Shown here piece by piece: positions 7,631-55,321 of a DNA stretch of 64,000 nt. Source of the DNA: Parasphingorhabdus sp. (GTDB lineage Bacteria; Pseudomonadota; Alphaproteobacteria; Sphingomonadales; Sphingomonadaceae). The stretch covers positions 62,001 to 126,000 of the forward strand of contig JAUCYS010000005.1 of NCBI GenBank assembly GCA_030373505.1, given 5' to 3'. The number at the start of each line of letters is the position of its first letter. Within the stretch, counting starts at the first letter, position 1. Made by a program: the position numbers and the translations under genes. Under the pieces are notes generated by a model. That model searched no databases. It saw only the letters and a program-made list of their open reading frames with translations, and was not told the DNA's origin.

Positions 7631-7717
7631 GTGCACCTGCGCAGGCAGGTGCCCATCTCCCAAAGGTGCGCTTAGACGGACTGGTCCTAGATGGACCCCT
7701 GCCTGCGCAGGGGCACC
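7631..7717. repeat. palindromic repeat, family 1, copy a (intergenic)
   Basis: Imperfect inverted repeat: left arm 7631-7660 containing CTGCGCAGGCAGGTGCCCAT, right arm 7689-7717 its near complement. It lies between the convergent prmA and phhA genes, where it could also serve as a bidirectional terminator. The same arms recur at 15653-15737 (inside ligA) and 55072-55220. Confidence 0.75.
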
Positions 7718-13927: not shown

Positions 13928-16991
<3,064 letters not shown>

Positions 16992-22569: not shown

Positions 22570-23571
22570 TCACATATTGAACCCGCGAACCACCTTGACG
22601 GTGCCATCAACAAGCTCGGCCAGCGCAACCGGAGAACCTTGGTTCTCTGTCGCCAGAAAAAGCCCGTTGAGTGCGGGGTTCCCGATCATTTCCTGTTCGT
22701 CCAGCGTCATGCCTTGCCGAAGCAGTTTTGCCTGATCAGGAGTGAGGTCATAAGCCGGGATGTCGTCCAGCCCTGCCTCCAGCGGCAAAAGATAGTCTGT
22801 AATGTCCGCGCCCTTACCGATTTCGTTGAGTTTGTCCAGCGAAATCGCCCGTTCCAGGGTGAAGGGACCGGCCTTGGTCCTCCTTAACATGGTGACATGG
22901 CCGACCGTATCAAGGGCCCGCGCGATATCCCGGGCAAGGGACCGGATATAGGTGCCCTTGGAGACAGTGGCCGTGAGCGTGATTTCTGCCAATGGTTCGT
23001 CATCCTGAACTTGTTTCAGGACCTCGGGGGATCCTGAAACAAGTTCAGGATGACGAGTGGCGGCATCAGGGTGCCGAACGGATAGACTATAGATCTCTAC
23101 CCCCCGCAGCTTCATCTCCACGTCCACGCCAGCGCGCGCCAGATCATAGGCCCGCTTGCCGTCGATCTTCAGCGCCGAATATTTGGGCGGTATCTGCTCG
23201 ATCGGGCCCGTAAACCGCGGCAATATCGCTTCCACTTGCGCCAGCGTCGGTCGATGGTCGGATGTCTCGGTAACCGCCCCCTCGACGTCCAGCGTCTCGG
23301 TTTCCGTCCCGAAACCGATGGTAAACTCATAAATTTTCGACGCATCCAGCATCCGTCCGCACAGCTTGGTCGCCTCGCCGATCGCGATCGGCAGGACCCC
23401 GGTCGCCAGCGGGTCCAGCGTCCCGCCATGGCCGACCTTCAGCTTGTCCTTGCCCATGCCGAGCAAGCCCGCCTCCCGCAAATTGCGCTTCACCGCTCCG
23501 ACCGCCTGGGTCGAGCCAAGTTCCAGCGGTTTGTCCAGTATGATCCAGCCGTGCGGTTTCAACGCGCCCAC
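22570..23571 (-). CDS. truB: tRNA pseudouridine-55 synthase with a repeat-encoded insertion
   Basis: TruB makes pseudouridine 55 in the T loop of tRNA. The 333 residues show GWIILDKPLELGSTQAV, the catalytic Asp in VGHGGTLDPLATGVLPI, and the SKGTYIRSLARDIA motif. Residues about 172-191 (starting RHPELVSGS and ending VQDDE) are not part of the family; they are encoded by a perfect 24-base-arm palindrome at 22998-23055. The start is GTG at 23571, overlapping the upstream GNAT gene by 13 bases. The reading frame remains open through the insertion, so the enzyme is presumably functional. Confidence 0.95.
   Translation of the reverse strand: MGALKPHGWIILDKPLELGSTQAVGAVKRNLREAGLLGMGKDKLKVGHGGTLDPLATGVLPIAIGEATKLCGRMLDASKIYEFTIGFGTETETLDVEGAVTETSDHRPTLAQVEAILPRFTGPIEQIPPKYSALKIDGKRAYDLARAGVDVEMKLRGVEIYSLSVRHPDAATRHPELVSGSPEVLKQVQDDEPLAEITLTATVSKGTYIRSLARDIARALDTVGHVTMLRRTKAGPFTLERAISLDKLNEIGKGADITDYLLPLEAGLDDIPAYDLTPDQAKLLRQGMTLDEQEMIGNPALNGLFLATENQGSPVALAELVDGTVKVVRGFNM
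22998..23055. repeat. perfect palindrome inserted in truB
   Basis: Arms 22998-23021 (CGTCATCCTGAACTTGTTTC plus AGGA) and 23032-23055 are exact reverse complements over 24 bases, with a 10-base loop. It is the widespread 'HPELVSGS' type repeat of alphaproteobacteria, here carried in frame within truB before the SKGTYIRS strand. Confidence 0.92.
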
Positions 23572-24098
23572 TCTTCTTTCAGCAGCCCAAACACCGCCGT
23601 GTCCCGCACATAGCCGGTCCAGGTGATCCGGTTCCTGCGCAACGTGCCCTCGTGCTTGGCGCCCAGTTTCAGCACCGCTGCCATCGAGCGCTTGTTGCGG
23701 GTATCGACGCGAAATTCGATGCGGGTGAAGCCTTGCGAAAAGGCATGATCGATCATCAGCTTCTTCATGCTGTCGTTAAAGCCGATGCCGCGAACCGAGG
23801 GGGCAATATAGGTGCCGCCGATTTCCGTCACTTTGGTCTTGGGATCAGGATTGATATAGTTGGTCATCCCTACCAGCTTGCCGGTTTCGCGGTTAATGAC
23901 GGCAAAGCGGACCCAGTTGCTGGTATCGTGAAAGGCCTCGATCGCCTGGTCGAAATTCTCGTCGAGCATAGAAACCGGGTATATCTCCCAGATATCCCGA
24001 TCTTCCGCGCAGGCCGCGCGAAGCGGTTCGAGATGATGTTCGGCAAGCGGTTCGAGCCGCACCGGCCCCTGCTCCAATATTGTCGACAGTTCAGCCAT
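23559..24098 (-). CDS. GNAT family N-acetyltransferase
   Basis: A 179-residue acetyltransferase of the GNAT fold, RimJ/RimL-like subgroup. The acyl-CoA loop region reads [28 protein letters not shown], followed by the [26 protein letters not shown] motif typical of RimJ/RimL-type enzymes. The substrate could be a protein N-terminus or a small molecule. It overlaps tdk upstream (8 bases) and truB downstream (13 bases), so it is embedded in the translation operon. Confidence 0.85.
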
Positions 24099-24669
24099 TC
24101 AGCCGCTCCCGGAAATGTTTCCGGCACAGAGCCAGATAGCTTTCATTGCCGCCTATTTCGGTCTGCGCACCGGCGGCAATCGCCCTGCCCGCTTCGTCGA
24201 TGCGCAGGTTCATCGTCGCCTTGCGTCCGCATTCGCAGACCGCCTTCAGTTCCACCAGACTGTCGGCGATGCCCAGCAGCTTGGCCGATCCGGTGAACAG
24301 ATTGCCCTGAAAGTCGGTCCGCAGACCATAGCAAAGCACCGGAATGCCCATTTCATCGGCGATGCGCGCGAGCTGCCAGACCTGACTTTCGGTCAGAAAC
24401 TGCGCTTCGTCGATCATCACGCAAGCCAGTTCGCCTCGCTCATGCTCCTCGCTTATGGCGCCAAACAAGTCCGTTTCCTCGCTAAAGCGATGGGCATCGG
24501 CATGGAGTCCGATCCGCGAGGCAATGGCGCCGAAACTCGCCCGGTTATCGATCGCTGCGGTCCATAGCATCACCTTCATGCCGCGCTCGCCATAGTTGAA
24601 GGCCGCCTGCAGCAGATTGCTCGACTTGCCGGCGTTCATCGACGCATAATAGAAATAGAGCTTGGCCAT
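24091..24669 (-). CDS. tdk: thymidine kinase
   Basis: A type II thymidine kinase that phosphorylates thymidine with ATP in the salvage pathway. The 192 residues show the phosphate-binding loop [13 protein letters not shown], the catalytic DEAQFL segment, the lasso/zinc region [12 protein letters not shown], and a late LCRKHF cysteine. The frame opens much further upstream, but that extension is translated repeat DNA (FVLSLSKDG...). I therefore place the start at ATG 24669 (MAKLYFYY). It lies between rbfA and a GNAT gene inside the infB-truB cluster, an unusual place for tdk. Confidence 0.93.
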
Positions 24670-24686
24670 AGGTACCGCTTCATAAC

Positions 24687-24755
24687 CGTTCGGGCTGAGC
24701 CTGTCGAAGCCCATTTGCGTCCTGAAACCGTCCTTCGACAGGCTCAGGACGAACG
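24687..24755. repeat. palindromic repeat, family 2, copy upstream of tdk
   Basis: Left arm CGTTCGGGCTGAGCCTGTCG at 24687 and right arm CGACAGGCTCAGGACGAACG ending at 24755 form a 69-base inverted repeat. It lies immediately upstream of tdk and runs up to the last codons of rbfA. Same family as 40879-40947. Confidence 0.85.
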
Positions 24756-24758
24756 GCA

Positions 24759-25169
24759 TTATTCGCCGTCAGATTCCTTCGACAGATCCTGCGCCACCTT
24801 GGGATTGTTGAGCAGGCTTTCGATATGCTCCGCAGTGTCAAAGCTCTCGTCGGCCAGGAATTTCAGCTTCGCCGCATATTTCATCTGCACCCGCTTGGCG
24901 ACTTCCTTCTGGAAGAAAGCCGTGTTGGTCCTGAGCGCCTTCAGCACATCGGCCTCATTCGCCCCCAGCAGCGGCTTCACGAACACGGTAGCATGGCGCA
25001 GATCGGGCGACATGCGCACTTCGGTGACGCTGACGCTGTGCGAGGTCAGCACCACATCATGCACCTCGCCGCGCATCAGCAGTTCCGACAGGATATGCCG
25101 CACCTGCTCGCCGACCCGCAGCAGGCGGACCGAACGGCCTTCGGGGGATGTATCGTTATATTTTGCCAC
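24759..25169 (-). CDS. rbfA: ribosome-binding factor A
   Basis: RbfA helps mature the 5' end of 16S rRNA in the small subunit. The 136 residues show the KH-like fold: [46 protein letters not shown] and a late [28 protein letters not shown]. The start is GTG at 25169, with GAGG nine bases upstream; ATG at 25193 is less likely because it adds residues without homology. It lies directly downstream of infB. Confidence 0.92.
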
Positions 25170-40878: not shown

Positions 40879-40947
40879 CGTTCGTCCTGAGCCTGTCGAA
40901 GGACATCTCTCATCCAGGGGCGTGGTTCGACAGGCTCACCACGAACG
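40879..40947. repeat. palindromic repeat, family 2, intergenic copy
   Basis: Left arm CGTTCGTCCTGAGCCTGTCG from 40879 and right arm GGTTCGACAGGCTCACCACG followed by AACG ending at 40947, with CATCTCTCATCC between them. It lies between the convergent dnaN and amidohydrolase genes. Confidence 0.88.
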
Positions 40948-55012: not shown

Positions 55013-55038
55013 CGTTCGTCCCGAGCCTGTCGAAGGAC
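55013..55038. repeat. palindromic repeat, family 2, half copy
   Basis: CGTTCGTCCCGAGCCTGTCG followed by AAGGAC matches the left arm of the element at 40879-40947. No right arm is seen nearby. Confidence 0.65.
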
Positions 55039-55071
55039 AGCCCCTAAAAGCGCTTACCGGAACTGCCGCCC

Positions 55072-55220
55072 GTGCCCCTGCGAAGGCAGGGGCCCATCTC
55101 CCGAACGGCGGTCGAAACACACTGGCGAAAGAGCCCAGCGCCCGGTCGACTTCCCGTACCTTCATAACCATTCTGCCATCAGAAAAAGCAGGAGATGGCC
55201 CCCTGCCTTCGCAGAGGAAC
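55072..55220. repeat. palindromic repeat, family 1, copy c with long spacer
   Basis: Left arm 55072-55102 contains CCCCTGCGAAGGCAGGGGCC; right arm 55191-55220 contains GGAGATGGCCCCCTGCCTTC. The spacer of about 88 bases is longer than in copies a and b (about 25). Confidence 0.8.
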
Positions 55221-55321
55221 CATCGCCAGCCCAACCACCTTGCAAATCTGTGCGTCCGCAACCTTCGTAGCGCCGCAGAGGCACGGAAACTAGCCGGAGA
55301 AAAGTCTGCTGTGGCAGCAGC

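Follow-up and report, generated by a model that had tools for sequence, protein, structure and literature searches.

Rickettsia palindromic elements (RPEs) were reportedly described by Ogata et al. in 2000 and 2002. RPE-4 and RPE-6 are classed as CGTC repeats (PMC3733652, PMC10969869). In 2013, Di Nocera et al. reported REPs in the truB genes of S. maltophilia, E. litoralis, and S. alaskensis, and their article also notes RPE-1 in truB of R. conorii (PMC3733652). As these cases had already been reported, an in-frame palindrome in truB is not new. The parts of that article used here state that CGTC REPs have no dedicated or linked transposase and that how they move is open. According to the same parts, genes that share a functional category carry their REPs at differing sites, with recB as the exception (PMC3733652).

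We analyzed a 64,000-nucleotide stretch of a Parasphingorhabdus sp. genome (GCA_030373505.1, contig JAUCYS010000005.1, positions 62,001 to 126,000), referred to as the window. Its truB gene carries a palindrome. The features are as follows, in window coordinates.

22570..23571, minus strand: truB, tRNA pseudouridine(55) synthase, intact, 333 codons with the GTG start as listed (Pfam and NCBIfam matches)
22981..23082, minus strand: loop joining the strand that ends in ...EIYSL to the strand ITLTATVSKGTY, residues 164–197, a recurrent insertion place (coordinates from the loop of L018, the window's own locus)
22997..23056, no strand assigned: head-to-head dimer of a CGTC-2 type REP, 60 bp (arm pairing, genome copies, and RNA fold)
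22997..23021, plus strand: first arm, TCGTC end outward (sequence)
23022..23031, no strand assigned: 10-base spacer (sequence)
23032..23056, minus strand: second arm, exact reverse complement of the first (sequence)
23057..23076, minus strand: decayed run resembling a head (RHPDAA), immediately upstream with respect to coding, either a relic or a partial duplication (judged by eye against L020 and L022)

The initial annotation, made from the sequence alone, had described exact arms of 24 bases. Positions 22998–23021 and 23032–23055 were indeed exact reverse complements, and a further T–A pair (22997/23056) made the arms 25 bases long, one more than claimed. Positions 22996 and 23057 were unpaired, so the near-perfect 60-bp palindrome ends at 22997–23056. 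A 22-base arm pattern (≤3 mismatches) occurred twice in the window and in none of 100 window shuffles. The coding-strand RNA of 22990–23062 was predicted to form a single hairpin of −48.4 kcal/mol (z −10.9), and 0 of 200 shuffles folded equally well. This prediction agreed with the very stable mRNA hairpin proposed earlier; that the hairpin slows ribosomes is a suggestion only. A known RNA family was rejected as the identity of the hairpin, as an Rfam search of the insert returned nothing but six microRNA-type matches below threshold (E ≤ 1).

The palindrome consists of two CGTC-tagged REPs joined head to head; such REPs form a known alphaproteobacterial repeat superfamily. The CGTC tag is present at both outer ends, and the two tags pair with each other within the dimer. 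One arm contains an 8-bp stem, with A and T in the first/second position, and a 5-base loop (ATCCTGAA / CTTGT / TTCAGGAT). In the other arm, the last stem base is C. The stems are followed by CCC and CTC; the CGTC-2 tail is given as near CCA. The CGTC-2 class was assigned from the lengths of the stem and the loop.

In this genome, 17 arms (≤3 mismatches) were found at ten sites, and 14 of them formed seven opposed pairs; the reversed control gave 0. Arms were found in all 32 genomes of the genus and in none of the controls. Only one of the ten sites, the one in truB, was inside an identified gene. Of the remaining nine, four were within unassigned open frames of 106–217 codons, and the rest were between frames or at frame ends. 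The initial annotation was right about the palindrome and missed its setting, namely membership in a dispersed repeat family and a recurrent landing place.

Two further repeat types were observed in the window. A second palindromic family (CCTTCGACAGGCTCAGGACGAAC, PELVEG type) had four arms, located at 24688–24754, 40880–40902, and 55014–55036. Two of these arms extend over the start that is listed for the thymidine kinase frame (24091–24759). The true start of this frame is probably downstream of the listed one, because the family match begins only at residue 31. A third family of paired palindromes (GTGCCCCTGCGAAGGCAGGGGCCCATCTCC type) was located at 7631–7717, 15653–15738, and 55063–55229.

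The truB gene is intact. In the profile search, its product matched Pfam TruB_N (8.4e-47) and TruB_C_2 (4e-12), and it scored 210.4 bits against NCBIfam TIGR00431 (cut-off 151.45). The GGTLDP motif, which we take to hold the catalytic Asp, was present, and G49 to A56 were invariant in 30 aligned rows. The insert is in frame and stop-free within the 333 codons. It had been read as HPELVSGS...VQDDE ahead of SKGTYIRS, and the frame and translation of the window and of the relatives' loci agreed with this reading. The initial annotation had also raised a pseudogene and an assembly artefact as possible objections. A pseudogene was ruled out by the intact frame with all domains present, and also by the truB genes of five carriers (L018–L022), which differed by 5–11% in amino acids versus 23–31% at third positions over 230 codons. 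An artefact is unlikely, because five other genomes (G010, G001, G015, G025, and G024) carry such a dimer at the same truB place; G010 and G024 are listed as single contigs.

The TruB structure was modeled using AlphaFold2 with 30 aligned sequences. The best of five models had a mean pLDDT of 84.2, and the others ranged from 81.2 to 62.6. The sole run of at least three residues under pLDDT 50 was 170–186, located between strands 156–165 and 196–203. Solved TruB sequences have a short connection at the insert place in the alignment. From the model, the insert peptide is best taken as the disordered tip of a β-hairpin. As such a tip would be able to hold a disordered loop, an enzyme with about 20 extra surface residues likely works.

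To compare this loop among relatives, truB was sought in 60 genomes, the window's own included, and 57 matched; loci L018–L047 are the best 30 of the 57. Another 80 truB loci were taken from named genomes, most of them titled as Sphingomonadales genera, for a total of 110 loci. One peptide pattern for the named-genome search came from the insert (KQVQDDEP), which may favour CGTC-2 carriers. We take E. litoralis and S. alaskensis to be sphingomonad relatives. A sequence pattern located the loop in 109 loci, 90 of which were distinct, and the loop of the remaining locus, L068, was read by eye. The loop was 10 to 69 residues long in the 109 loci and longer in L068; several relatives had short loops. 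The frame was open through the loop in all 110 loci, and other reading frames of most inserts contained stops (13 loops tested).

Hand labeling indicated that 53 of the 90 distinct loops contained an in-frame insert of one of seven repeat families. These were A (CGTC-2, 12 loops), B (CGTC-1, 6), C (GGGGGACC repeat, 12), D (HPNPSPEGEG, 9), E (SSPPEGE, 10), F (ERSRET, 2), and G (PELVEG, 2). An Erythrobacter-type long loop was assigned to 21 of the 90, and 16 had neither this loop nor a repeat. Single linkage joined D with E; it also pooled A and C with the Erythrobacter-type loop, probably via two-segment rows. As it merged hand-labeled groups, six families is the cautious count. The L068 loop seems to be a stack of head relics, a CGTC-2 dimer, and a PEPVEG repeat (by eye). 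A conserved long loop, SAFATTAGRPDPYDPxAPLELAD, was observed in L078, L080, L088, and 18 other loci. It is the Erythrobacter-type loop and has no sign of a repeat, so a long loop need not derive from one. L106 and L121 contain a repeat beside this type of loop.

We searched for the inserts elsewhere. All loops of A (12/12), B (6/6), F (2/2), and G (2/2) matched DNA elsewhere in the fetched loci with L068 left out, that is, 22 of 90 loops versus 0 of 179 control segments. In the same search, no match was found for C, D, and E together (0/31) or for the unlabeled loops (0/37). In the genus genomes, the C insert of G003 had matches in 14 of 32, with 23 in G003 itself, and the D insert of G022 in 27 of 32, with 21 in G022 itself; one palindromic copy may score on both strands in these counts. 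The E insert of G011 had matches in 29 of the 32 genomes, and within G011 the sole match was the truB copy itself, hit on both strands.

The loop was also compared with other places. Gains of at least 12 residues were found in truB of 18 of 80 loci, all at residues 164–197, with the window's TruB, insert included, as the reference. No such gain was found in rpsO (80 loci), pnp (80), rbfA (38), or infB (27), over about 75,000 residues. In a sample of the class, TruB_N matched in 130 of 134 genomes. All three genomes of the window's family had an expanded TruB or a broken match; apart from the window's genome, one had an Erythrobacter-type loop and one a repeat-like loop. Among the other 127, three gained 12–13 residues and one broke the TruB_N match; two of these four had low-complexity residues in this loop, and two had extra residues elsewhere. 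In a sample of the phylum, which shares genomes with the class sample, 139 of 140 matched. All five genomes of the window's family were expanded or had a broken Pfam match, and the loop was read in three of them. None of the other 133 gained more than about 6 residues (by inspection), G311 apart, which gave a short degenerate match.

In-frame CGTC-2 inserts were also observed in glyS (L166, L167, and L168; G015, G024, and G025) and cysS (L170; G021), named by NCBIfam matches, so truB is not unique in taking them. The glyS genes of G024 and G025 seem, by eye, to hold two different repeat-like inserts at another single site, which lies between GHRFH and ITIGNA.

A quick tree was built from 90 TruB proteins with the loop removed; 22 of its 87 inner branches were starred and 30 were open. 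The seven families plus "other" required at least 31 changes on it, and repeat presence versus absence required 15. In the window's genus, 29 of 30 rows (28 by kinship code and two named loci placed by us) contained a repeat, with at least 11 changes. If only the starred branches are used, fewer changes are required (for example, A, 6; C, 5; D, 4), and exchange of truB between species could inflate the count. As judged from these sequences, different repeat families have filled the loop repeatedly in this bacterial family, and they appear to be gained, lost, and replaced.

These results were probably due to repeated capture of dispersed, non-autonomous repeats by a tolerant loop, most likely neutrally, with the arms of the truB copy being re-supplied. 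The non-coding, non-autonomous REP dimer lies in truB in the one codon phase without a stop. The β-hairpin tip would tolerate a disordered loop, so that the enzyme would keep working. Different repeat families would successively fill the loop, leave it, and replace one another. Through new insertions or gene conversion, dispersed copies would renew the arms more quickly than these decay. We infer tolerance as the cause of the loop filling and re-supply as the cause of the arm identity, and the insert peptide would be translated.

Targeted landing, in which truB DNA or a structure there would be recognised and the site would not be merely tolerant, was considered unlikely. Across genera, 13 of 18 CGTC-type inserts started 6 bases after the strand motif, although the rows are related and this is not a count of events. 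Three more (L018, L021, and L022) had a decayed head-like run at this offset (by eye). This start is more regular than simple tolerance suggests, and further compact CGTC-2 dimers 1.3–2.7 kb from truB (G001:C24:30969-31022, G015:C1:2911121-2911174, and G025:C58:228509-228562) also speak for targeting. However, the remaining inserts started at 0 (L082), 9 (L106), 27 (L018, the window, and L021), and 48 (L022), and the frame and the structure restrict which offsets survive. Families without a common sequence end up in the same loop, and glyS and cysS are hit too.

Head-only fragments (CATCCTGAA-like) were observed by eye 19–21 bases upstream of complete dimers in the L018, L020, L022, and L068 loops, in L166, and in L011 near 1480–1510. 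They look like relics of earlier arrivals or partial duplications. In eight genomes, exact-arm pairs fell into step classes of 32, 48, 52–54, and 65 bases, and the truB copies were all of the 32 class (by eye).

Arm sequences were compared among the six carriers. In L018–L022 (G000, G010, G001, G015, and G025), 0 of 48 arm bases differed in all ten pairs, despite the third-position differences given above (26–31% for the window versus the other four). The initial annotation had offered two alternatives, a recent insertion or a process that keeps the arms identical; of these, the latter is better supported. Identity of the arms over such a distance indicates that their sequence is re-supplied or homogenised. 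The sixth carrier, L023 (G024), differed from the window at 4 of 48 arm bases, and its own arms mismatched at 2. The right-hand flank codons CCA nTG nnA (G/A)AA ATC were common to five of the six carriers, which suggests that the truB site was filled before the carrier species split.

A single old insertion, with the arms kept alike in each genome by hairpin-templated correction (template switching) and no exchange between copies, would account for the shared flank codons. It would also account for a T-to-C change in L023 that is mirrored in both arms. We consider it quite unlikely. Template switching aligns two arms within a genome and would not hold five genomes identical at 48 of 48 bases. 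In addition, of the eight genomes searched for the L023 variant, G024 had it at two further sites, G001 and G025 had it at one site each, and the other five lacked it. Conversion by dispersed copies would fit both the shared flank codons and the arm identity; an independent recent insertion in each genome is a possible alternative for the arm identity. Among the compared truB loci, whose flanks were read by eye, no near-identical strain offered a clean empty site from which the insertion borders or a MITE-type target-site duplication could be read.

It is very unlikely that the hairpin is kept for a function, such as tuning truB expression at the RNA level or serving as a binding site for the TruB protein. 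The predicted fold is strong, 29 of 30 genus rows carry some repeat, and all 52 repeat-labeled loops of at least 60 bases folded better per base than the flanking truB. However, unlabeled loops tended the same way (15/20 and 4/4), so folding is a weak test, and palindromes fold by nature. The short loops of several relatives also argue against a function, as do the lack of a conserved structure type common to the families and the sub-threshold level of the microRNA-type Rfam matches. Skipping of the insert during translation, as for the bypassed hairpins of some mitochondria, would suit a hairpin inside a coding region but is extremely improbable, since it would not require the open frame kept in every locus, and the other frames of most tested inserts hold stops.

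The mover of the element was also considered. Y1_Tnp (RAYT-type) had no match in this genome (a draft, 88% complete), and a RAYT mover was rejected for it. None was found in 19 of the 32 genus genomes, including this one, G010, and G024; the other 13 had matches. The single-contig genomes G010 and G024 contained 42 and 51 arms, respectively. The absence agrees with the published absence of a transposase linked to CGTC REPs. As the start offsets of CGTC-type inserts are regular, the TruB hairpin loop might, tentatively, be a natural landing pad that receives transposase-unlinked REP-type elements time after time, close to one and the same codon boundary; we regard this as doubtful. If true, and as only in-frame arrivals would survive, the movement of REPs would be written into a single core gene, truB, as consecutive and in some cases stacked inserts, and this record could help find the mover.

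One loop with many turnovers in some 90 distinct genes offers a comparative record of how several repeat families arrived, were lost, and were replaced, and it is a defined place to seek empty sites. It also indicates that repeated DNA can add disordered segments to a core enzyme with the reading frame intact. No report of several repeat families captured by one loop was found in the open-licence literature, supplements excluded.

Compared with known systems, the element shares with GTAG REPs and REPINs moved by RAYT the paired small palindromes, the dispersal, and the lack of a gene of its own. Unlike them, its tag is CGTC and this genome has no Y1_Tnp match. It resembles the Rickettsia palindromic elements, as far as these are described in the parts of the two articles used here, in being a palindromic repeat in frame in a housekeeping gene (PMC10969869, PMC3733652). 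RPEs are about 150 bp, whereas the truB element is 60 bp, and the likeness is one of description. The closest match is the CGTC-2 REPs, with the same CGTC tag, 8-bp stem, 5-base loop, head-to-head pairing, dispersal, and alphaproteobacterial host, no linked tyrosine transposase found, and intragenic copies, truB included, as given in the parts of that account used here (PMC3733652). The element itself is ordinary, and its presence in truB is a known phenomenon. Repeated filling of one truB loop by different families is seen here, and not in those parts of that account (PMC3733652).
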